DNA of 64,000 nucleotides. It comes from an uncultured Opitutaceae bacterium (GTDB lineage: Bacteria > Verrucomicrobiota > Verrucomicrobiia > Opitutales > Opitutaceae). Below the pieces are notes generated by a model. That model was not told the DNA's origin. It saw only the letters and a list, made by a program, of their open reading frames with translations, and ran no database searches. Shown here one piece after another: positions 15,028 through 47,232 of the stretch (position 1 is its first letter; every line of letters begins with the position of its first letter). The stretch covers positions 1-64,000 of the forward strand of contig CAIYUN010000072.1 in the NCBI GenBank assembly GCA_903929355.1. Direction: 5' to 3'. Position numbers and translations under genes: made by a program.

Positions 15028-15056
15028 GGTGGAACCGGTTGACCCAACCGGTGGAA
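15028..15056. repeat. palindromic repeat family E, copy E4 (GGTGGAACCGGTTGACCCAACCGGT)
   Basis: 8-bp stem ACCGGTTG/CAACCGGT; same layout as the copies at 25803, 40147 and 46749. Confidence 0.65.
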
Positions 15057-21859: not shown

Positions 21860-22038
21860 GAGGTATGGACGGGTGGGAGCGGCGGAATCCATGAATCCAC
21901 GCCGTGAACAACCCTTCGTGTCCCATTATATGGGCCCACCGCCGCCATGGGGATGGGGTGTTACCCTGCCAAACCGGCGGACCTTCGTTGGGAAAACGGC
22001 CTGTTTCATCGGCCGGAGGGCGCATCTCAGCAGCGGTG

Positions 22039-22182
22039 TTAACTGGCGAGGGTAAAGTTTGGAGGGGCAATGAGCCGATTGAGGACACGGATCATTTTGC
22101 GCATGATGGCGATGATGCAGACCTTGGAGGGTTTGCTTTTCTCATTCCGCCGGATTGGACCAACCCACTGGCTGATCCGCAT
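22039..22182 (-). pseudogene. possible remnant of an IS110-family transposase C-terminus
   Basis: Reverse strand reads MRISQWVGPIRRNEKSKPSKVCIIAIMRKMIRVLNRLIAPPNFTLAS*; the K-x-S-K-V-x-I-x-A-I-MRK-x-x-x-x-L-N segment resembles the conserved C-terminal end of IS110 transposases; no intact upstream portion. Confidence 0.5.
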
Positions 22183-24050: not shown

Positions 24051-24782
24051 ATGTCCGGTCGCGCCCCCATGACCGCCAACGCCTCCCTCACGCCGCAGCC
24101 CGGCACGCTCTACGTCGTGGCCACGCCCATCGGCAACCTGGCCGATTTGACGGAGCGCGCCCGGGCGATCCTCGGCGCGGTGGACCTCGTGGCCTGTGAG
24201 GATACCCGCACGACCGGGGGGCTGCTCACCCGGTTCGGGCTGCACCGCGAGCTCACCGCCTATCATGAGCACAACGAGCTCGAGGCCGCCACCCGGCTCG
24301 CCGACCTGGTCGCCGCCGGCAAGTCCGTCGCCCTGGTGAGCGACGCCGGCACGCCCACCCTCAGCGACCCCGGCTTCCGTCTCGTGCGCGCCTGCCGCCA
24401 GCGCGGGCTGCCGGTCGTGCCGGTGCCCGGCCCGAGTGCCCTCACGGCGGTGCTCAGTGCGAGCGGCCTGCCAACCAACGGTTTTCTCTTTGTCGGCTTT
24501 CTCCCGCCCAAATCCGCCGCCCGGCTCGCCTTCCTTGAGCAGCACCGCGACTTCCGTTACACTCTGGCGCTCTACGAAAGCTGCCACCGGATCGAAAAAT
24601 TCACCACCGAGATCGTGGAAAAGCTCGGCCCCGCCCGGGTCGTCTGCCTCGCCCGCGAGGTCACCAAGCTCCACGAGACCTTTCTCGTCGGCCCCGCCGC
24701 CGAGGTGCAGGCCCGGCTCGTGGCCGGGAGCCAGAAGGGGGAGTTCGTGGTGTTGATCGCACCGGGGGATTTCAAACTTTGA
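24051..24782 (+). CDS. rsmI: 16S rRNA (cytidine(1402)-2'-O)-methyltransferase
   Basis: GTLYVVATPIGNLADLTERARAIL...EDTRTTGGLL...SDAGTPTLSDPGFRLV. Confidence 0.94.
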   Translation: MSGRAPMTANASLTPQPGTLYVVATPIGNLADLTERARAILGAVDLVACEDTRTTGGLLTRFGLHRELTAYHEHNELEAATRLADLVAAGKSVALVSDAGTPTLSDPGFRLVRACRQRGLPVVPVPGPSALTAVLSASGLPTNGFLFVGFLPPKSAARLAFLEQHRDFRYTLALYESCHRIEKFTTEIVEKLGPARVVCLAREVTKLHETFLVGPAAEVQARLVAGSQKGEFVVLIAPGDFKL

Positions 24783-24857
24783 AACCACGGATGAACACGG
24801 ATGGACACGGATTGTCCGTCTGTTTTCATCCGTGTTTATCCGTATCCATCCGTGGTT
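24782..24857. repeat. inverted repeat of CACGGAT-unit arms (aaaccacggatgaacacggatggacacggat / atccgtgtttatccgtatccatccgtggtt)
   Basis: Both arms directly visible; related single arm at 36250..36280. Confidence 0.85.
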
Positions 24858-25802
24858 AACCCTCCTGCCATCGCCGTCATCGATATCGGCTCCAACTCGA
24901 TCAAGCTGCTCGTCGCCGCCCGCGACGCGGGCGGGAATCTGCAGGCTCTGCTCCAGCAGACGTTGGATGTGCGCATCAGCGCCGGGCTCGGCCGGGAGCG
25001 ACCCCGGCTCGGCGAGGAGGGCATCGCCCGCGGCCTCGCCGCCATCCAGGAACTCATCGCCGCGGCCGGGTCCCATTCGCCTGCGCAGACCATCCTCGTC
25101 GCCACGAGCGCGGTGCGCGGCGCGGAGAACGGCGCCGATTTCTGCGCCCGGGTGCTGGCCACCACCGGCCAGGCGGTCAGGATTTTGGCGGGCGCCGAAG
25201 AGGCCAACCTCATCGGCCGCGGCCTGCTCTGCGACCCGGCCCTGGTGGATTTTCAGGATTTTTATGTTTTTGACCTCGGCGGCGGCAGCTTGGAATGTCT
25301 CACCTTCCGCCAACGCCGGATCGAGCAGGAGCTGAGCCTCGCGCTCGGCTGCGTGCGCCTCACCGAGCGTTTCATCCCCGACCCCGCCGCGCCGATCACG
25401 GCCGCCGCCACCACCGCGCTCGCGCTTCATGTGCGCGACGAGCTGAAGAAGTCCGGCTTCCGCTTCAACCTCGGCTCCGCCGGGGCCGTGTTCACCGGCG
25501 GCAGCATGACCAGCGTGCGCGCCATCAATGGCGCGATGCACGGGGTCGCCCTTGCCGACACACCGCCCGTCGTGTCCGCCGACACCCTCGCCGCGCTCGT
25601 CGAGGAGGTGCTTCCGCTCACCCTGGGACAGCGCCAAAATATTCCCGGCCTCCCCGCCGCGCGCGCCGACGTGTTTCCGGCCGCTCTCATCACGATGCTC
25701 ACCGTGGCCGAATACGGGCTCATCAGCCATTTTCATCACTCGCTCCACAACCTCCGCTGGGGCGTGGCCGCGGAGGCGATGAGGGAAGATCCCCACGTTT
25801 GA
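24852..25802 (+). CDS. Ppx/GppA family phosphatase
   Basis: AIAVIDIGSNSIKLLVAARDAGG...FDLGGGSLECLTF; GTG start proposed because the ATG at 24801 lies inside the repeat. Confidence 0.88.
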   Translation: MVNPPAIAVIDIGSNSIKLLVAARDAGGNLQALLQQTLDVRISAGLGRERPRLGEEGIARGLAAIQELIAAAGSHSPAQTILVATSAVRGAENGADFCARVLATTGQAVRILAGAEEANLIGRGLLCDPALVDFQDFYVFDLGGGSLECLTFRQRRIEQELSLALGCVRLTERFIPDPAAPITAAATTALALHVRDELKKSGFRFNLGSAGAVFTGGSMTSVRAINGAMHGVALADTPPVVSADTLAALVEEVLPLTLGQRQNIPGLPAARADVFPAALITMLTVAEYGLISHFHHSLHNLRWGVAAEAMREDPHV

Positions 25803-25877
25803 GGTGGAGCGCGTTGACTCCAACGCGCTGGTTCGAGGGCCCGCCCGGAAAGCGCGTTGGGGTCAACGCGCTCCACC
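25803..25877. repeat. palindromic repeat family E, paired copy E1 (25803-25829 and inverted 25851-25877)
   Basis: GGTGGAGCGCGTTGACTCCAACGCGCT ... AGCGCGTTGGGGTCAACGCGCTCCACC; each arm has a 9-bp hairpin. Confidence 0.9.
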
Positions 25878-25966
25878 TTCTGGCTCCCTCACCCCGGCCG
25901 ACCACCACGTCACCAAGGCAACGCGGCGGGGCGCCACGCCTCCATTTTCTACCCGTTGCCCCGCTT

Positions 25967-26010: not shown

Positions 26011-27039
26011 TCAGCCCCTGGGCTCGTGCTCGTGGAAGGTGGCCACGTCCGTCTGGCGGGTCTTCGCGGCGGCGGCGGCGGCCTTTTTGGTTTTGGCCGC
26101 GGCCCGGGCCAGTTTGCGCAGCGGCACCAGCTGGGCGGCAAAGTCCTTCGGGAGCGGTGCACGCAAATCCATTTTTTTTCGGGTGACCGGATGGGTGAAC
26201 ACCAGATGTTCCGCGTGCAGCATCACGCGGGTGGCCGGACGGGGGTCCTTCGGGTTGGGTTTCCAGCCGTAGATCACATCGCCGACCAGAATGTGGCCGA
26301 GCGATTTGAGGTGCACCCGGATCTGGTGGGTGCGGCCGGTGTGGATGGTGCAACGCACCAGCGCAGCGACGTGGCCGAACTTCTCCACGACCTCCCAGTC
26401 GGTGTGGGCATCGCGCCCGGGCTGCCCCTCCTCGGCCACGGCCATCTTGTGTCGCTGGCGTGGATTCCGCCCGATGGGCTTGCGGATGCTGCCGCTCAGG
26501 AGGCGGGGCACGCCGTCCACCAGCGCCAGATACTCCTTTTTCAGGGTGCGTCCGGAAAACTGCGCCGCGAGCCCGCGGTGCGCCGTGTCGGACTTTGCCA
26601 CCAAAATCAGGCCCGAAGTGTCGCGGTCGAGCCGGTGGACGATGCCGGGTCGCTGCACGCCGCCCACCCCGCTGAGCGAGCCCGCACAGTGCGCGAGCAG
26701 GGCGTGGACGAGTGTGTCCTCCCGCGTGCCCGCGCCCGGATGCACCACCATGCCGGCGGCCTTGTTCAGCGCGAGGAAGTGTTTGTCCTCGTAGATCACG
26801 TCGAGCGGGAGGTCCACCGCTTTCAGCTCCGAGGCCACTGTGGCGGGAAATTCATAAGTGACCACGTCACCCACATGGAGCGGGTGACTGCGGTCGACCA
26901 CCTTGCCGGCGACCCGCACCAACCCTGCGTCCAGCGCCCGGCGCCACGCCACCCGGCTGTGCTCCGGCAGCGCGGCGGCGAGCAGCTTGTCCACCCGCGT
27001 GCGGGGGGTGTCGGGGGGAACGGTGTAGGTTTCGGGCAT
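26011..27039 (-). CDS. RluA-family pseudouridine synthase (RluD-like, S4 domain)
   Basis: LDVIYEDKHFLALNKAAGMVVHPGAG...GIVHRLDRDTSGLILVAKSD...HTGRTHQIRVHLKSLGHILVGDVIYG. Confidence 0.94.
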   Translation of the reverse strand: MPETYTVPPDTPRTRVDKLLAAALPEHSRVAWRRALDAGLVRVAGKVVDRSHPLHVGDVVTYEFPATVASELKAVDLPLDVIYEDKHFLALNKAAGMVVHPGAGTREDTLVHALLAHCAGSLSGVGGVQRPGIVHRLDRDTSGLILVAKSDTAHRGLAAQFSGRTLKKEYLALVDGVPRLLSGSIRKPIGRNPRQRHKMAVAEEGQPGRDAHTDWEVVEKFGHVAALVRCTIHTGRTHQIRVHLKSLGHILVGDVIYGWKPNPKDPRPATRVMLHAEHLVFTHPVTRKKMDLRAPLPKDFAAQLVPLRKLARAAAKTKKAAAAAAKTRQTDVATFHEHEPRG

Positions 27040-27098
27040 GGGGCACCGCAAGCATGCGGCCTGCCGCCACAAGTGGCGATTGCAAAATCCGTCACATT

Positions 27099-30000
27099 TC
27101 AAGGTGCGGCTTCGCGCAACGCCAACGAGTGCTTCGTCCCTGCTGCGACCGCCACCACCCCCGCCAAGTCGGTCGGGACGTTGGTCTGACCGGCACCATT
27201 TTCACCCCATGCCACCACCGTACCATCCGCACTTACCGCGAGTGAATGTCCCGCTCCCGCCGCGATGCCGACTACGCTGATCAGTCCATCCGGCACCGCC
27301 GAAGGAGCCCCACCAATGCTCCAGGCCACGACTGTTCCATCCGCTCTCAACGCCAATGCATGACCCGCGCCGGCTGCAATCGCGACAACCTGACGCAAAC
27401 CCTCCGGACCAGCAGGTGAGGCCGGACGGCCGACGCCCCACTCCGCCACCGTGCCGTCCGACCGCAGGGCAAGCGAATGCATCCCTTTTGCCGCGATCGC
27501 CACCACGTCGCCCAAGGACAAGGGCAAGTTGGGACCTTGGGGCCCCCGGGCATAGTTTTCAGCCACCGATATATTCTCAACGATGCCATCTGTCCGGAGA
27601 AGAAGCGAATACCCGCTGGCTCCCTGGTACATCGTGCCTCCCGCGATCGCCAGTCCGCGGGACAGCTCTTGCAATCCTTTGATGGTGCGCACTCCACTGG
27701 AGCTTTGGACCGTTATCATCTGCGGCGGGTTTGATGGACCATGAGTTCCTCCCCAAGAAACAATAGTCCCGTCAGCCTTTAAAGCCAAAGAATGATAGCC
27801 ACCCGCAGCGATTGCCACCACGTCGTTCAAACCCGGCGGCACGATCGTTTGCCCGGCATCATTGCCACCCCAGGCCACCACCGTTCCGTCGGCCTTCAGG
27901 GCGAGGGAATGACGGTCGCCAGCCGCCACGGCCACCACTCCGGTCAAACCAGCCGGTAGGTTTGTCTGACCGTTGGTGTTGCCGCCCCAAGCAATTACCT
28001 CCGGTTTCGCCAGAGCGACGATTACAAATCCGCCCGCGCTGGCGGTCAGCCCGTTGCCATCCCTCACCTCGATCGAATAGTAGCCACCGTCCTGGAACTT
28101 GATCCCACCACGGGTCAGACTCGCCGTGGTGGCCCCATTGATATCGAACCCGTTCCTCTTCCATTGATACCGCAATGGAGCCTGACCGGTTGCCCGAACT
28201 CCAAGGCTGAGTGAGGCTCCCCTGTTGAGCACCGTCCGGGAAGGAAGTCCGACGATGATTCTCGGCGGCGGAATCACGGTCAAGGCGGCACTGGCGGTTG
28301 CGCGACCAGCGCCGTTGCTTACCACAACGGTGTAAGTGCCGCCATCAGCCGGCTGAACATTGCTCAGCAATAAATTGGCGGCCTGAGCGCCCTCAGCGGT
28401 CATACCCTCCGGAGGCGCCGGTTGCGATCCTCGAAACGGGCTCTGCTCAACGTTGTGAAGGGGATTCCCGTCCTTCAACCACTGGAAGACGAGGTTGTCC
28501 CCCTGGCCAGTCTGCACACTCAAGGCAACTTTCTGCTGTGGCATCACGGACTGGCTCTTTGGAGGCGTGGCAATGACGGGAAAAGTGTCCTGCGAGCCAT
28601 CACGCAACGCATAGGGTCCCGCCACGGCTAACACCGTCTTTGGGAGACTCAAAATCCCGCCGCTATATCCGGTCATGACGGTTCCATCTTCTGCTCTGAA
28701 GCCCCCTGGAATCCTTTCGACCACGTCATGCAGGCCGGCCGCAGTCTTGGCGGCATCGCCGCCCCACGCCACGACCTTGCCGTCTGCCCTGAGCGCCAGA
28801 GACCCAAAGTCTGTCGCCACGGCGACCACGTCATGCAGGCCAGTTGGAACAATCTCCTGGCCGTTGCCACCCGGGCCAAACGCGACGACACTCCCGTCCG
28901 CCCGCAAAGCTAGCGCGTTGCCGGAGTCGGCCGAGATGCCGATCACATCGTTGAAGTCAGTCACAGGGGTCTTAAAGTAGGAGGTGCCCTGTCCCCATGC
29001 GACCAGCGTGCCGTTGGCTTTCAATGCCAGCGCAAAGCTCCATTCCACCGCCACTGCCACAACATCACTCAAACCCGGCGGCACCTCAAGGACGTTGGGC
29101 AGGTTCCCACCCCAGGCCGTTACGGTTCCATCCGCTTTCAACGCGAACGAAGTTTCTGGGCCCGTGGCGATGGCGACGACGTCGCCCAAGGCGGCCGGCA
29201 CGTCGGACTGACTTCGATCATTGCCGCCCCATGCCGCCACCGTGCCGTCGGATTTCAGGGCTAGTATGCGCCAGCCGCCCGTAGCCGGGGAGGCGTTTGC
29301 CGACAGTGCCACCACGTTCCGTAGGTCGGTGGGCATCGGAGAACGATTGAATGCGCCGGGATTGAGATCCACCACTTGGTTGTGCGAAGCATCCAGGCCG
29401 GAAAACGACTGCAGCCGCACAAAGGCCACAGCACGGGTGACGATGCCCCTAGTGTCGGTCGCTTCCACCACATAGCTGCCGATGTCCTGAACGGCGGTTG
29501 CAGCCACCCCATAATTATCGGCCGTCGCGCCGGGAATGCGTCGGCCGTTTCGCTTCCACTGATACGTGAAGGGCGGATCTCCACTTGCCTTTGCTTGCAG
29601 AGAAAATGGCTCGCCAAGGCTCACCACCGGCCGGGAGGGCACACTCTCGATGGCGGTCGGCGCCCTGATCGTCAAAGTTGCCCTCTCGCTCATGACTGAA
29701 CCTAGGGAGTTCTGGACGACGACCCCATACTCCCCTGCCGCCGTCGCCGGGGGATTCGGCAAGGTCAACACCGACCCCGTAGCCCCGGGAATCGCCACCC
29801 GGTCCTTCTGCCATTGGTATTGCAGCGCCCCGCCGGACGCCGTCACCGCCATCGTAACCGCATGCCCTGCGGCCATGGCTTGGCTGACAGGTTGAACGGA
29901 AATGAGCGGCGGGGTGTCCTGCGAGCTATCGCGTAAAATCACCACCCGGTCTTTCCGCAGCACAACGTCCATCACATTGGTCAGGTCGGCTGGAGTCGCA

Positions 30001-33000
30001 AACTTTACACCAGCTTGGCCCCAGTCGTCGCTCCAAATCTTGAAGGTTCCGTCTGCTATCATCGCCAGCGATTGCCGATCGTTGGTGGCGACGGCCACCA
30101 CATTGTCCAGGTCGGACACGACTGCGGCCGATACGTTGAAGGAAAAACCGATGCGGAGCACCTTCCCGTCGCCCCTGAGCGCCAATGCGTGCTGATTCTC
30201 CACCACGAGGGAGGCCACATTCGCCACGTTGTCCGGTAGCTTCATCGGTCTAAGTCCGTCCCTCAAAGCCGTCACCGTCCCGTCCGCCTTCAAGGCCAGA
30301 GTGTATCGGCCCGATTGCTCAACCGCAATGACACCGCGCAAATGGGGGAGAACGGGAATATCCTCGTTCGGCAGTCTTTCCCATTCTGCCGCTCCGTCCG
30401 ATTTCAGGAGTATGACATGGCCGCCGCCACCGACCGCCGCCACCACATCGGAGGCCAGGGCGGATTCATTGCGCGGCCCATTGCGCGGGCTAAGCTCGGT
30501 CTCCCCCCACGTTAGCGCCGATCCGTCTTGGTTGAGCGCGCGCATCCAACCATCCCCGCCAGTCAATTCGGTGACCTTTTCCAGTTTGGTGAGCGGGCTA
30601 TTCGGATCAAATTCCCGACCTGTCCAGACGAGCACCTGCGTCTTTGGCGGTATAACGCGGACAAGACTGAGGTGCAGCGACGACAGGCCCTTCGCGTCGG
30701 TAATCTCCACCGAATAGATGCCCGTGTCCTTGACGGTGGCCGCCGGCACACTGTAGCTGTCTGTTGTCGCTCCGGAGAGCAGCCGGCCGTTGAGCTTCCA
30801 GCGGTAGTTCAGCGGCGACTGGCCCTCGGCCGTCACCTGCAAGCGGAGCGGTTGTCCGGCCGGCAATGATTGACGGGCGGGCGGCGCGGTAATGATCGCC
30901 GGCCGAGGACGCACGGTGAGCTGGAACGGCGCGCTGGTCGCCGAGCCACCGCCGTTGGTGGCGATCACAGTAAAGCTTCCGGAGTCGGCAGTTTGAGCGC
31001 CAGGGATCGTAAACACAGCATCGGTGGCCTGCTTGATCGCAACCCCATCTTTCTGCCATTGATAGGTGGCAAACCCCGGGTGTTCAGGAGCCGTTAACGT
31101 AACCGAATCCCACTCCAGGACCTCGATATCCTTCGTCTTGCCAACAAAGTTTGGCGGAAAGTCCTCCGAGCCATCGCGCAGAGCCAGCGCGTGGGATTCG
31201 CCCGCAGCCACAGCCACGACATGGTCAAGTTTCCCGGGCAAATAAGCCTTCGGTGGATTTGTGACACCCGGTCCACTCGCCATACTAACCCCTGGCTGCC
31301 AAGCCGCCAGGGATCCGTCCGACATACGCGCGAACGCTTGGTGTTGGCTGGTGGTCAGCCCCACCACACCGGTGATACCCTGTGGCATTGCCTGCGACAT
31401 TCCTTGTTGGTCAAGCGCCACCACCGTCCCATCAGCTTCCACCGCCATGGTTCCATTCGCCGTAATGGCTACGGCAACGTTTTGTCCGCCGGAATGGACC
31501 TTTGGCTCATTGACGCCCCAATTCACCACGGTGCCATCGGATTTCAGTGCCGCCAAACCGTAATGACCCGCCACCACGGCAATCGCCCCCTTCGCACTTT
31601 CGGGAGCAGCGCCTGCATAACCCCAGGACACCACCGAACCGTCAGATTTCAAGGCCACCCCGCTAAACCCTCCCGCCGCAATCGCCACCACGTCCCGCAA
31701 TCCAGCTGGAAATGCCAACTGGCCAAAACTGTTGTCGCCCCAACCCACGACGGTTCCGTCCGCGTTCAAAGCCAGCGAAAACCACTGGCCGGCCGCCACC
31801 GCCACGGCATCGGTGAGATTTGCCGGCACGTTTGACTCGCCCCCTTCATTGTTGCCCCAAGCCACGACCGTCCCGTCGACTTTCAGGGCCAATGAACGCT
31901 GATCGTCCGCCGCCAGCGCGACCACATTGTTTTCCAAGCCCTCCGGCAAGGTGGTTTCGCCGTGCCCATTCGTGCCCCAAGCGATCACGCGGGAGTTTGG
32001 ATAGGCGACATTTACGAAGCCCACGAATGTCCTCACAGTCACGCCGTTGGCGTCAGTCACCTCGGCGGTGTAGTAGCCAGCACTCTGCCAATTCGCCGCC
32101 CCATCGTGGTAGTCCGGCAAGGTCGCCCCAATCAGTTTCACCCCGTTTCGCATCCATTGGTAGCGCAAGGGGGCCTCGCCCGTGGCCTGGACATGGAGAT
32201 CGAACTTCCCACCCTTGTTGACGACGGTGCGCCGCGAAGGGGTCACGTTGAGCACGGGCGGCGCGGGCACAGTCAACACGGCCACCTCGCTCGTCACGCT
32301 CCCCGCCCCATTCGTGACCACCACCGTATAATTGCCTGCATCCCCTGGTTGTACCCGGGCCGCCGTCATGGTGTTCTTACTGGGCTTCGCCAGCGGCACG
32401 CCGTCCTTCTGCCACTGGTAGCTCACAAACCCGCCCGTGACGTCGACCCCAAAGCTCGCGTCTTGGTTCGCCAGCACCGTCCGGCTGGCCGGCTGCGTTG
32501 TGATGGTTGGCAGCACATCCAGGGCGCCATCGCGCAACGCCACCACATGGTTTTCACCGGCAGCGACCAGCAACACATGATCCAGCCCCGGCGGGATCGC
32601 CGTCTGACCGGTCTTGGCATTGCCCCAGGCCACTAACATGCCGTCGGCTTTCACCGCGAACGAGTAATCTTCCGCTGCCGCGATGGCGGTGGCTTTGCCG
32701 AGGTTCGCCGGCACGCTCGCCTGGGCGACACCATCGCCGCCCCACGCCACCACTTGGCCATTAGCCGTCAATGCCATCGAGTGCCGGGCTCCTGCTGCGA
32801 GCGACACGACTGCATCCAACCCGGGCGGAACTTTTCGGGGACCGGTAATGGCCGCATCATCCTGAATCAGTCCATCCGCCCGAAGGGCAAAGGAGTGCCT
32901 CGGACCGCCGGTCGCAATCAACGCCGATCGCACGCCGTCCAGCCGGCGTGAGGACTCATAATGAAAGGTGACGCGAGTGTCAAAAGAGCGCCACCATCCG

Positions 33001-35047
33001 ACGACTGTGCCATTCGCCTCCAAGGCCAGGATTTCGCTGCCTTGGGCGGCGATCGCCACCACCTCGCGCAACCCCCCAGCCATGGATTGTTGCGCGCCCG
33101 CGTCCTCACCCCAAAGCACCACCCTTCCGTCCGACTTTAAAGCGAGTGAATTGTTCGCCCCCGCCGCCACCGCCACGACGTCATCCAGGCCGGCGGGCAC
33201 CGTGGCCTGGCCAAACTGGTTGTCTCCCCACGCTACCACCGTGCCGTCTGCCTTCAATGCGAGCGAGTGCCCGCCGCCCGCCGCCACCGCAATCACCCCA
33301 TCCAGATTGGTCGGCGGCATCGTCCGGTCCATACTGAACGTACCCCACTCGACCACTTGAGCGCGCGGCCACGCAATGTTGACAAATGCCGTCGCCCGCG
33401 TCGTCAGGCTGTTATCGTCGGTGATTTCAACGGTGTAATAGCCGCTGTCTTTCCAGTCTGCTGCGGTCGTTGGCGTGAAGGCCGGCGTGGTGGCTCCGGC
33501 CACGGGCCGGCCGTTTTTCTTCCATTGGTAGCGCAATGCCGTCTGCCCTTCCGCCGACACTTGCAGGGTGAGCGACTGCCTGACGTTCAACACCGTGCGG
33601 GCTGGCGGCGCGCGCCGAATCACCGGAGGAACCAACACCGTAAGCGACACCGGCTCACTGGTGGCGGTGCCCAGATAATTACTAACCGTCACCGAGTAGC
33701 TCCCGGCGTCCTCGGGCCGCAGACTGGGTATGGTGAGCGCGGGTGCGGTGGCCCCTGCGATCGCCCCGCCGTTTTTCATCCATTGATAAGTCAGCATACC
33801 CTCGCGGGCCTCCACTTTTAACTCCGCCCTTTGGCCGACCCGGGCACGTTGGGACACTGGACCCGTGACAATTACCGGCGGGGAGTCGCGCGAGGCATCG
33901 CGCAAAGCGAGAGAATGGCTCCGACCGACTGATACCGCGACCACGGAATCCAATCCAACCGGCCCGCTCAGGCGACCCAGATCAGGGTAACCCCAACCGA
34001 CGAGGGTACCGTCGGCCTTCAACGCCAACGCACCATCAAAACCGGCGGAAAGAGCAAGAACGCCGGACAAATTGGGCGGCGTCAGGACTTGGTATCGGCC
34101 CCAGCTGACCACGCTGCCATCCGCCCTCAGCGCCAGGGATCCAGAATAGCCCGTGGCCAAATCCACCACATTCGCCAATGTCGGCGGGACCGGGCTTTGG
34201 CCGCTCGTATCGGCCGTACCCCAACCGACCACCGTCCCATCCCCCAGCAAGGCGAGCGTGTACAGGTAGCCTGCTTTCACCTTAATCACCTGACCAATTT
34301 GGGTCGGCACTATCCCCTCGCCTCCCGGACTACCACCCCATGCCACAACAGATCCATCGGCCTTAAGCGCCACCGAATGGTAAGAACCGGCCGAAATAGC
34401 GACCACATCGGACAATCCCGCCGGGACGCTGGACTGCCCGAATTGATTGTCTCCCCAAGCAACCACGGTGCCGTCGGCCCGCAGGGCAAGTGAATGATAT
34501 CCTCCCGCCGCCACGGCGACGACCTCGCGCAGATCCCCGGGAATTGCGTTCTGCCCGTTTTGGTTGCTGCCCCATGCCACCACGGTCCCATCGGCTTTCA
34601 ACGCAAGCGAATGATAATTCCCAGCGGACACCAATGTGGCATCGGTCAATCCCACCGGGATGTCAGTTAGCACCTTGCCGTCCGCATCCCAGTCTATGAC
34701 TTGGGCTCGACTGTAGGCAACGTTGACAAACGCCACCGTCCGCGTCACGAGCCCGCTGCCATCGGTCACCTCGACCGTGTAAACCCCGCCGTCCTGCGCC
34801 AAACCGAAGGGTTGCGATAGGTGGGGGTTGTTGCCCCTGCGATGGGTCGACCATCTCTTTTCCATTGATAGGCCAAATTCGAGTCGCCCGTCGCCGTTAC
34901 ATCCAAGGTCATCGACTCACCCACCCTGACTACTGTACGCGAGGAAGGGGGCGTCACAATGACCGGCGCCGCCAGCAGGACCAGAGGCAGGAAAAAAACG
35001 CAACTGATCGCAAAAATCGCCGTCAGCAGCTTACGGTGAAATCGCAT
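27099..35047 (-). CDS. giant secreted protein of alternating Ig-like domains and RCC1 repeats; needs one nucleotide restored near 34795-34830 to be a single ORF
   Basis: N-terminal ORF 34766..35047 has a signal peptide and first Ig domain (...YQWKRDGRPIAGATTPTY); remainder in ORF 27099..34865 with many copies of VVAVAAGxxHSLALKADGTVVAWGxNxxGQ and Ig motifs YQWKKNGxxxxGAT..YxxxxxxxxxxGxYTVxVxN. Confidence 0.85.
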
Positions 35048-40146: not shown

Positions 40147-40203
40147 GGTGGAGCGGGTTGACCTCAACCCGCTTCAAGCCGGTTGGGGTCAACCGGCTCC
40201 ACC
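40147..40203. repeat. palindromic repeat family E, paired copy E2 (40147-40173 and inverted 40177-40203)
   Basis: GGTGGAGCGGGTTGACCTCAACCCGCT TCA AGCCGGTTGGGGTCAACCGGCTCCACC; local stems CGGG/CCCG and CCGG/CCGG. Confidence 0.9.
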
Positions 40204-43640: not shown

Positions 43641-43744
43641 GTGACGCATTTTGAAATGCCACCACAACGGTGGGGGCGGCTCTCCGAGCCGTCCGCGGAC
43701 GCCACGGAGTGGCGTCCCTACCCAAGGACGGCAAAATGCGTCAC
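43641..43744. repeat. compound palindromic element: 13-bp terminal inverted repeats GTGACGCATTTTG/CAAAATGCGTCAC enclosing two hairpins
   Basis: Inner hairpins ggcggctc-tcc-gagccgtcc (43677-) and ggacgccac-gga-gtggcgtcc (43697-43717). Confidence 0.8.
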
Positions 43745-43842
43745 GACCGGCTTGCACGGTCGGTTTTTCCGGTTATCAATCGGCTCAGGATGAGTTCGAC
43801 GCGGGGTGAGGGCACCCCGCCCACATTATTCCCCGCCTCCCC

Positions 43843-45150: not shown

Positions 45151-45246
45151 AGGTTTTGGTTTGGCACGTCGTGAACAGGCACTGGCTGCAATCGATCAAG
45201 CCAAATGCGGGCTCGCTGCGCGACCGAAGGGGGTCCATCGTGCCGC

Positions 45247-47232
45247 ATGGAAAAACTGCCGTTCGCCGCCCTTGGTCTCTCGCCCGATGCCCTCAAGGCC
45301 GTGGCCAAGATGGGATTTGAGGAGGCCTCCCCCATCCAAACCGCCGTCATCCCCGCGATTCTCGCGGGGCGCGATGTCGTTGGCCAGTCCTCGACCGGCT
45401 CGGGCAAGACTGCCGCCTTCGCGCTCCCGGCCATCGAACGCGTGGACCCCAAGCTCCGCGCGGTGCAGGTGCTCATCCTCTGCCCCACCCGCGAGTTGGC
45501 GGTGCAGGTCGCCGAGGAGGTCGGCAAGCTCTCGTTCTTCAAGCGCGGCCTGCAGGCGGTGCCGATCTACGGCGGACAGAGCTACGAGCGGCAGTTCCGC
45601 GCCCTGGCGGCCGGCGCCCAGATCGTGATCGGCACCCCGGGCCGGGTGATGGACCACATGGACCGCGGCACCCTGCGGCTCGACGCGCTCAAGCTGGTGG
45701 TCCTCGACGAGACCGACCGCATGCTCGACATGGGCTTCCGTGACGACATCGAGAAAATCCTCAAGGCCGTGCCCGCGACCCGGCAGTTGCTGTTTTTCTC
45801 GGCCACGATCCCGCGTCTGATCCAGGACCTGATCAGCCGCTACTCGAAGGACCCGGCCTGGATCAAGATCGAGTCGGTCGCACAAAACGCGCCGCAGGTG
45901 GATCAGGTCTATTTCGAGGTGGACCGCCGATCCAAGATCGAGGCGCTCACCCGGCTCATTGACGTGCACGACTTCCGCTACGGTCTCATCTTCTGCAGCA
46001 CCAAGATCATGGTGGACGAGCTCGACGAGCACCTGCACGCGCGCGGCTACGCGACGGACCGGCTGCACGGCGACCTCTCCCAAATGCAACGTGACCGCGT
46101 GATGGACAAATTCCGCCGGCGCGGGTTCGAGTTTCTCGTGGCGACGGACGTCGCGGCGCGCGGACTCGATGTGGACGACCTGGAGGTGGTGTTCAACTTC
46201 GACCTCCCCAACGACGCCGAGGACTACACCCATCGCATCGGTCGCACGGGCCGCGCGGGGAAGTCGGGCCGGGCGTTCACCTTTGTCTCCGGGCAGGAGA
46301 TCTACAAGCTCCAGAGCATGGTGCGCTGGGCGCGGCTGAACATCCGCCGCGAGCGCATCCCGTCGCTGGACGAGGTGGACGAGGCGCGCGCCAACGTGTT
46401 TTTCGACAAGATCCGCGCCACGCTGGAGGCGAAGGAGTTCAAGCCGCACGACCGGATGATCGACCGGCTGCTCGACCAGGGACATGCCAGCACGGACATC
46501 TGCTCGGCGTTGATTCACCTGCTGCAAGGCGGCACGGGCGCCCCGGCGCCCGCGGCGGGCAAACGACCAAAGCCCGCCATCGCCGACGCGGACGCGCGCC
46601 CGAAGGCGCGCTATGGTGGTCCCCTGCCCCACGCCGCCATCCCCAAGCCCGCGATGCAGCCGGTGCCCGCCAAGCCCGCCGTTGCGGTCACTGCCGCCTC
46701 CCCGGAGCCCAAGAAAATCAAGCCCTTCATTCATGCGGCTCCGAAAAAGGTGGAGCGCGTTGACCCCAACGCGCTGGGCGGAACCATCACCACCCCACCC
46801 GCCGACGCCAAGGCGATGGCCCGGCCAGCCCCGCCAGCCGAGGCACCCGCCCATCCGACACCCACCACCCCTTCCTCGCCGCGCCAGAGCGCAGCGACGG
46901 CGGGAGCCCTTCCTCCCTCCGCCACGCCCACCGCGCCGCCGCCGCGCAAATCCAAATACGAGCGCCAGCCGCGCACCGGCCGCGAGCCGGGCATGACCAC
47001 CATCCGCCTGAATGTCGGCCGGGCCCAGCTCGTCACACCGGGCGACATCGTGGGGAAAATCTCCGGGATCACCCGGCTGCCCGCCGGCGTCGTGGGCGCG
47101 ATCGACATCCACGAGGACCACACCTTCGCCGATGTCGCCTCGGCTGACGCAGCCTTTATCGTGAAAAAGCTTGAAGGCATCCCCCTCAAGGACGTGACGC
47201 TCGCCCCGACCCTGGCGGGAAAGGCGGAATGA
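45247..47232 (+). CDS. DEAD/DEAH-box RNA helicase with C-terminal DbpA/CsdA-type RNA-binding domain
   Basis: SSTGSGKTAAFALPAIE, VVLDETDRMLDMGF, FFSATIPRL, ATDVAARGLDVDDLEVVFNFDLPNDAEDYTHRIGRTGRAG. Confidence 0.94.
   Translation: MEKLPFAALGLSPDALKAVAKMGFEEASPIQTAVIPAILAGRDVVGQSSTGSGKTAAFALPAIERVDPKLRAVQVLILCPTRELAVQVAEEVGKLSFFKRGLQAVPIYGGQSYERQFRALAAGAQIVIGTPGRVMDHMDRGTLRLDALKLVVLDETDRMLDMGFRDDIEKILKAVPATRQLLFFSATIPRLIQDLISRYSKDPAWIKIESVAQNAPQVDQVYFEVDRRSKIEALTRLIDVHDFRYGLIFCSTKIMVDELDEHLHARGYATDRLHGDLSQMQRDRVMDKFRRRGFEFLVATDVAARGLDVDDLEVVFNFDLPNDAEDYTHRIGRTGRAGKSGRAFTFVSGQEIYKLQSMVRWARLNIRRERIPSLDEVDEARANVFFDKIRATLEAKEFKPHDRMIDRLLDQGHASTDICSALIHLLQGGTGAPAPAAGKRPKPAIADADARPKARYGGPLPHAAIPKPAMQPVPAKPAVAVTAASPEPKKIKPFIHAAPKKVERVDPNALGGTITTPPADAKAMARPAPPAEAPAHPTPTTPSSPRQSAATAGALPPSATPTAPPPRKSKYERQPRTGREPGMTTIRLNVGRAQLVTPGDIVGKISGITRLPAGVVGAIDIHEDHTFADVASADAAFIVKKLEGIPLKDVTLAPTLAGKAE
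46749..46775. repeat. palindromic repeat family E, single copy E3 translated in frame inside the helicase gene
   Basis: GGTGGAGCGCGTTGACCCCAACGCGCT; encodes (K)VERVDPNAL in the Pro/Ala-rich linker. Confidence 0.88.

Follow-up and report, generated by a model that had tools for sequence, protein, structure and literature searches.

GTGG-tagged REP hairpins in an Opitutaceae draft genome and a RAYT beta1 motif associated with the tag

Immediately past the stop codon of ppx, in the space between convergent genes, this uncultured Opitutaceae bacterium carries two copies of one palindrome in opposite orientation, and the question is what kind of element they form and what moves or maintains it. 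The sequence-only reading of the window (by which we mean the whole 64,000-nucleotide stretch analysed) listed six such arms and took them for a dispersed hairpin family that might be a selected or mobile unit. All six are present (Table 1); the starts at 25803, 40147, 46749 and 15028 are those of a GGTGG motif, with the stems following 5-6 nt on. Our own reading, which we hold to be very probable, is that each hairpin is a REP element whose guide tag is GTGG instead of the usual GTAG, that two of them frequently stand head to head as a REPIN, and that they would have been mobilised by a RAYT (REP-associated tyrosine transposase) in which a change in strand beta1 goes with the reading of GTGG.

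Table 1. Coordinates, within the window, of the REP copies and of the genes beside or around them
Feature	Positions	Strand	Remarks
REP left arm of dimer E1	25803..25829	+	GGTGG tag 25803-25807; 9-bp stem and 4-nt loop 25808-25829
Spacer of head-to-head dimer	25830..25850	.	21 nt
REP right arm of dimer E1	25851..25877	-	inverted, tag outward; CCACC at 25873-25877
Complete head-to-head dimer (REPIN) E1	25803..25877	.	
ppx (Ppx/GppA phosphatase)	24801..25802	+	upstream of dimer; gene call start 24852
Presumed RluD-like pseudouridine synthase gene	26011..27102	-	convergent neighbour of ppx
REP, left arm of head-to-head heterodimer	40147..40173	+	AGCGGGTTG/CAACCCGCT stem
REP, right arm of heterodimer	40177..40203	-	AGCCGGTTG/CAACCGGCT stem; 3-nt spacer
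Single REP	46749..46775	+	in frame within DEAD-box helicase gene (KVERVDPNAL)
DEAD-box RNA helicase gene	45205..47232	+	linker holds in-frame REP
Degenerate REP	15028..15053	+	3-nt loop (GGTGGAACCGGTTGACCCAACCGGTG)

Anatomy, copy number and stem covariation

The unit is 27 nt long and consists of a near-invariant GGTGG followed by a 9-bp stem with a 4-nt loop, the tag-oriented consensus being GGTGG - AGCGCGTTG - ACCC - CAACGCGCT. The unpaired tag, which the initial reading did not single out, is its best-conserved portion. Within the window, AGCGCGTTG-N4-CAACGCGCT with at most three mismatches has 4 matches against 0.06 expected, and an oriented pattern that includes the CCACC tag has 11 against 1.28 expected. 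Pattern searches of the 3.8-Mb draft genome found the strict core at 43 exact places, against 0 for a reversed control; a tagged pattern with at most three mismatches matched 82 and 74 times on the two strands (control 6 and 2), some places being counted twice because the pattern is near-palindromic, and a GTGG-anchored pattern with at most two mismatches matched 120 times (control 0), palindromy again double-counting a few. We put the copy number of the GGTGG REP family in this genome at roughly 110-120; the family is dispersed, as had been claimed, and rather than being limited to the copies first seen it extends well beyond the window. An nhmmer search of 397 kb of loci picked around pattern matches, and so not a genome-wide count, gave 107 copies of at least 11 bits that start with GGTGG (49 distinct sequences), plus five hits of at least 11 bits without that start. 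The hairpins had no match in Rfam at gathering scores.

Stem types include AGCGCG, AGCGGG, AGCCGG, AACCGG, GGCGCG, AGCGCA and AACGCG, among others, each with its matching partner. That the stem bases change together while pairing is kept was also borne out, with both-side changes at five stem positions among 46 distinct copies. In these rows, 92.8% of the cells are paired (83.6% when shuffled), 26 cells are changed on both sides (5.2 when shuffled, and inflated in the real rows by inherited subfamilies), and the covariation score is 0.214 (0.069 when shuffled), with none of 500 shuffles reaching any of these values. The number of stem pairs with a double change (5 against 3.1; 47 of 500 shuffles) and that of further pair types (251 of 500) are unexceptional. 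Because the rows share ancestry, and significance comes from shuffling rows related by descent, the evidence for compensatory change is strong but not formal.

Compensated stems could also arise through palindrome correction by template switching instead of selection for pairing, the family then being inert debris of past REP activity, and covariation alone does not separate the two. Such correction makes symmetric changes in a single step with no need of intermediates, the inflation of counts by subfamilies that many copies inherit is in its favour, and so is the lack of a cognate RAYT in the draft. One-sided intermediates do occur, however, stem position 5 being left unpaired in 12 distinct rows, for instance, and template switching leaves the conservation of the tag unexplained. 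Contigs C8 and C38 moreover start with identical dimers having an identical spacer, which suggests recent copying and speaks against inert debris. We regard this explanation as unlikely. The proposal that the hairpin is a mobile unit is, by comparison, well supported by the compensated stems, by the presence of more than 100 copies and by the bracketing of RAYT genes in relatives.

Genomic setting and the dimer beside ppx

Adjacent copies lie head to head with their tags outward in 27 cases and in tandem in 9, and never tail to tail, while about half of the copies are single or more than 130 bp from the nearest next copy. A simple gene call from codon usage places 83 copies outside predicted genes, 23 inside and 10 at edges; 83 of the 106 classified copies are thus outside, though predicted genes make up 83% of the bases. 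The flank profile of 108 copies has a weak A at -1 only, with no clear target consensus around them. Of the 13 intragenic copies on the strand of their gene, 12 share a reading frame, which mostly gives VERVDPNAL, and in-frame insertions that add VERVDPNAL-like peptides to proteins were seen at 46749-46775, at L031:5713-5878, in L040 and elsewhere.

The copy in the helicase gene, with in-frame linker sequence APKKVERVDPNALGG, is absent from the congeners G002, G004 and G005 and unclear in G003; the same linker holds different REP-like sequences in G001 and G162. At the 40147 site, G002 carries a GTAG-type inverted pair in place of the heterodimer. The copy at 15028 scores 7.3 bits, where the other five arms reach 26-37, and it folds only weakly better than shuffles (z of -2.9), compared with clear values of -5 to -11 for arms and dimers. 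A different dispersed element, of about 90-140 bp, occupies window positions 22010-22150, with six more genome copies at 79% identity, several of them at contig ends, and further copies in G002, G091 and G162; no tRNA was found there.

The dimer beside ppx, taken as single-stranded DNA, folds as a single long hairpin (z -10.75). No dimer is present at the orthologous place in G001, G002, G004 or G005, where gene order is preserved (the G003 contig ends short of ppx); in G002, some 28 nt separate the aligned parts. These congeners are diverged, at about 75-85% identity, and exact empty sites cannot be mapped among them. A search for related loci based on Ppx gave two loci only, in Oleiharenicola sp. 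and Lacunisphaera sp. MAGs, at 60-61% identity. Upstream of ppx, at 24781-24813, lies a short ATCCGTGTTCATCCGTG-like stretch that recurs in congeners; the long start-codon call probably runs into it, and the real start of ppx is probably downstream of 24801. On the other side of the dimer, the convergent gene is one that we take to be RluD-like from sequence motifs such as HRLDRDTSG, and beyond it a 2588-aa reading frame (27099-34865) contains repeated SLALKADGTVVAWG (RCC1-like) and Ig-like modules.

A start right past a stop codon invites the suggestion that an RNA function, such as 3'-end protection, attenuation or termination, maintains the hairpins, their spread being incidental, and the many copies between codirectional (51) or convergent (21) genes fit this suggestion, as does the tolerance of some stems for G-T pairs. 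At the dimer itself, though, no intrinsic terminator (a GC stem followed by a T-run) was found; the T-run is absent, and the sole site returned by the terminator scan, 25928-25942, is outside the dimer and at chance level. The best conservation falls on the unpaired tag, copies stand in frame inside genes, and the same family brackets RAYT genes, all of which argue against an RNA function, and we judge it quite improbable as the explanation, the RNA-function and REP readings not being mutually exclusive. The perfect dyad symmetry and the inverted pairs might also suggest operators bound by a dimeric regulator, or else a DDE transposase MITE, but we give these readings almost no credence, as the stem sequence varies while symmetry and the one-sided tag stay, the opposite of an operator, and as RAYT genes are bracketed by the family.

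As REP elements, the hairpins have the features of the GTAG/GTGG superfamily: a high-copy stem-loop of 20-40 nt, with an unpaired GT[AG]G at its 5' foot, that is mainly extragenic. Di Nocera et al. 2013 (PMC3733652) describe GTAG-tagged REPs that include GTAG-20 of Opitutus terrae, most GTAG-20 elements being tagged GTGG. By that description, GTAG-20 resembles our family in being a short stem-loop with a 5' tag, in having complementary alternative stem bases in its subfamilies and in forming head-to-head dimers; O. terrae is also reported there to be rich in intragenic REPs, with RNA helicase genes among their hosts, and here too copies are intragenic and include one in an RNA helicase gene. 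The REPINs of Bertels and Rainey 2011 (PMC3116915) are likewise two inverted REPs with a short spacer, dispersed as a unit, but about half of our copies are single or distant and there are tandem arrays as well. Rickettsia palindromic elements, as cited in PMC3733652, are palindromic repeats in frame within protein genes, as some copies are here; the present family differs in that most copies are outside predicted genes and in its link to a RAYT in relatives. REPs, REPINs, GTGG tags in O. terrae, intragenic REPs and GTGG-enriched marginal RAYTs are already in print.

Candidate transposases

The strict tagged pattern occurs in five of 177 genomes in an order-wide sample, all five of one family, and in all six genomes of the genus. 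Related copies are present in G007, dimer-length matches were found in relatives, and the presence or absence of copies differs between congeners.

On the proposed mechanism, a REP present as single-stranded DNA would fold into tag plus hairpin, and the RAYT (TnpAREP), a Y1-HUH nuclease, would bind both, nick a nearby dinucleotide chosen with the help of the tag, and join the nicked strand elsewhere; a GTGG-type RAYT would have mobilised the copies in this genome. The initial suggestion to look for a RAYT or Y1-HUH transposase was rewarded in relatives, where such genes have copies of this REP family on both sides, but no cognate was found in this draft. Among the four Y1-type genes (Y1_Tnp) of the draft assembly, none is bracketed by the GTGG family, and the draft has no H-x-R RAYT (see below). 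We rejected as mobiliser the nearest RAYT, on contig C39, which is bracketed by a different, GTAG-tagged family (GTAG-GGACGCCTCTCCGAGGCGTCC), and likewise two 326-aa genes and a truncated one, which have no adjacent GTGG-family copy. A second REP family (GGACGCC/GGCGTCC type) is represented in the window by two head-to-head copies at 43668-43723, the right one with tag GTAG, and this family also brackets the RAYT at C39 (L031:12377-12922).

A small RAYT of G077 has a GTGG REP of this hairpin family on either side, both with their tags outward. Its close homologues in G003 and G005 likewise stand between copies of the GTGG family, and G001 has a related RAYT. The G077 protein scores 65.7 bits with NCBIfam REP_Tyr_transpos NF047646 (E 4e-18; curated cut-off 80) and 17.5 with Pfam Y1_Tnp (E 0.0046; cut-off 23), and the GTAG RAYT of C39 is above the cut-off in both. 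RAYT identity is supported by a match to the TnpAREP of PDB 4er8 (E 1.5e-9). In alignment A2, the H-x-R RAYTs have the HUH motif MPDHxH, WQ, and invariant Y122, N126 and P127 (the YIxxNP motif), and the tag-contact residues W, Q, D, H and R on the beta4 side are constant across their rows. Like known RAYT/TnpAREP proteins, for which Quentin et al. 2018 (PMC6006769) and Corneloup et al. 2021 (PMC8266576) report GT[AG]G guides, they are encoded by genes flanked by their own REP family and keep the region of W94, Q95, E/D100, H101 and R104.

In this genome, the cognate GTGG RAYT may have been lost, be missing from the draft or have been replaced by another RAYT, leaving more than 100 REP copies with no detected cognate. 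Contigs C8, C14, C31, C38, C39, C43 and C74 of this genome (G000) each have an end no more than a few dozen bases away from a REP copy, so the RAYT absent from the draft could have fallen into an assembly gap. In the single-contig G162 genome, no RAYT flanked by a GTTG-type REP was found, despite 25 copies.

The tag and the beta1 motif

In a first tree of 26 RAYTs, with tags read by eye, the seven flanked by GTGG REPs form one clade (100/99), and three alternating residues in beta1 split the groups, H-x-R-x-[RS] going with GTGG and F-x-T-x-C with GTAG. A family sample of RAYT loci from 120 genomes, in which a script compared six tags, gave 22 GTGG, 0 GTAG and 3 unscored among H-x-R loci, and 36 GTAG, 1 GTGG, 1 GTCG and 14 unscored among F-x-T loci. 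Motif and tag agree in 58 of 59 calls, a figure that covers GTGG and GTAG calls alone and an H-x-R set in which the seven loci that first suggested the motif are counted. In a later phylum-wide set, all six H-x-R and all nine F-x-T loci match the tag (15/15, with one unscored), where one of the nine F-x-T loci reads F-x-S and several H-x-R loci have GGTG as top tag, counted as GGTGG one base off register.

The H-x-R proteins are a single clade of 31 rows nested within 58 F-x-T rows (99/95; 98% of bootstraps). The association thus goes back to a single event in evolution that many descendants have inherited; it does not establish cause and effect, and the Fisher value must not be taken as independent evidence. 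Tag-motif agreement leads us to infer that the beta1 change from F-x-T to H-x-R accompanies the reading of GTGG instead of GTAG. Tag contacts of TnpAREP have been reported in the RAYT literature in beta1, around beta4 and at the C-terminus, and the E. coli protein, a GTAG RAYT of solved structure, aligns F15-F16-T17-V18-N19 at the motif positions and so carries F-x-T. Published accounts (PMC6006769, PMC8266576) have the tag guiding the cleavage dinucleotide in Marinomonas and note some marginal RAYTs enriched in GTGG; beta1 H-x-R as a predictor of GTGG is not described in the sections consulted, and relative to these the beta1 signature is what is new here. Tag and motif change jointly on one well-supported branch while the bacterial family also retains GTAG relatives, and co-evolution between the enzyme and its DNA tag can thus be put to a direct test.

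Corneloup et al. 2021 (PMC8266576) matched the CT site with A3G4 of the tag, and found that when the Marinomonas REP was changed from GTAG to GTGG, it was cleaved at CC, CA also continuing to be cut. Their matching model predicts CC or CA as the site in natural GTGG elements; in a search for a mark of the cleavage site, no CC, CA or CT proved to be conserved at constant spacing from the tag. A more specific idea, to which we give somewhat less than even credence, is that a Verrucomicrobiota RAYT lineage switched its guide from GTAG to GTGG via beta1 (F-x-T-x-C to H-x-R-x-R), moving the cleavage and target dinucleotide from CT to CC or CA as well. If so, this would be a naturally re-programmed single-strand transposase whose tag is predictable from protein sequence.

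Two F-x-T RAYTs are exceptions in being flanked by GTGG REPs, namely L191 (G221:C6) and L084 (G091:C43), the latter falling outside the 58 of 59 counted by the script. The reading frame of L191 contains one TGA. A GTGG-GCGGGGTGCCCTCACCCCGC hairpin at 43800-43826 of the window, which represents a third REP family, matches the REPs on either side of the L084 RAYT in G091.
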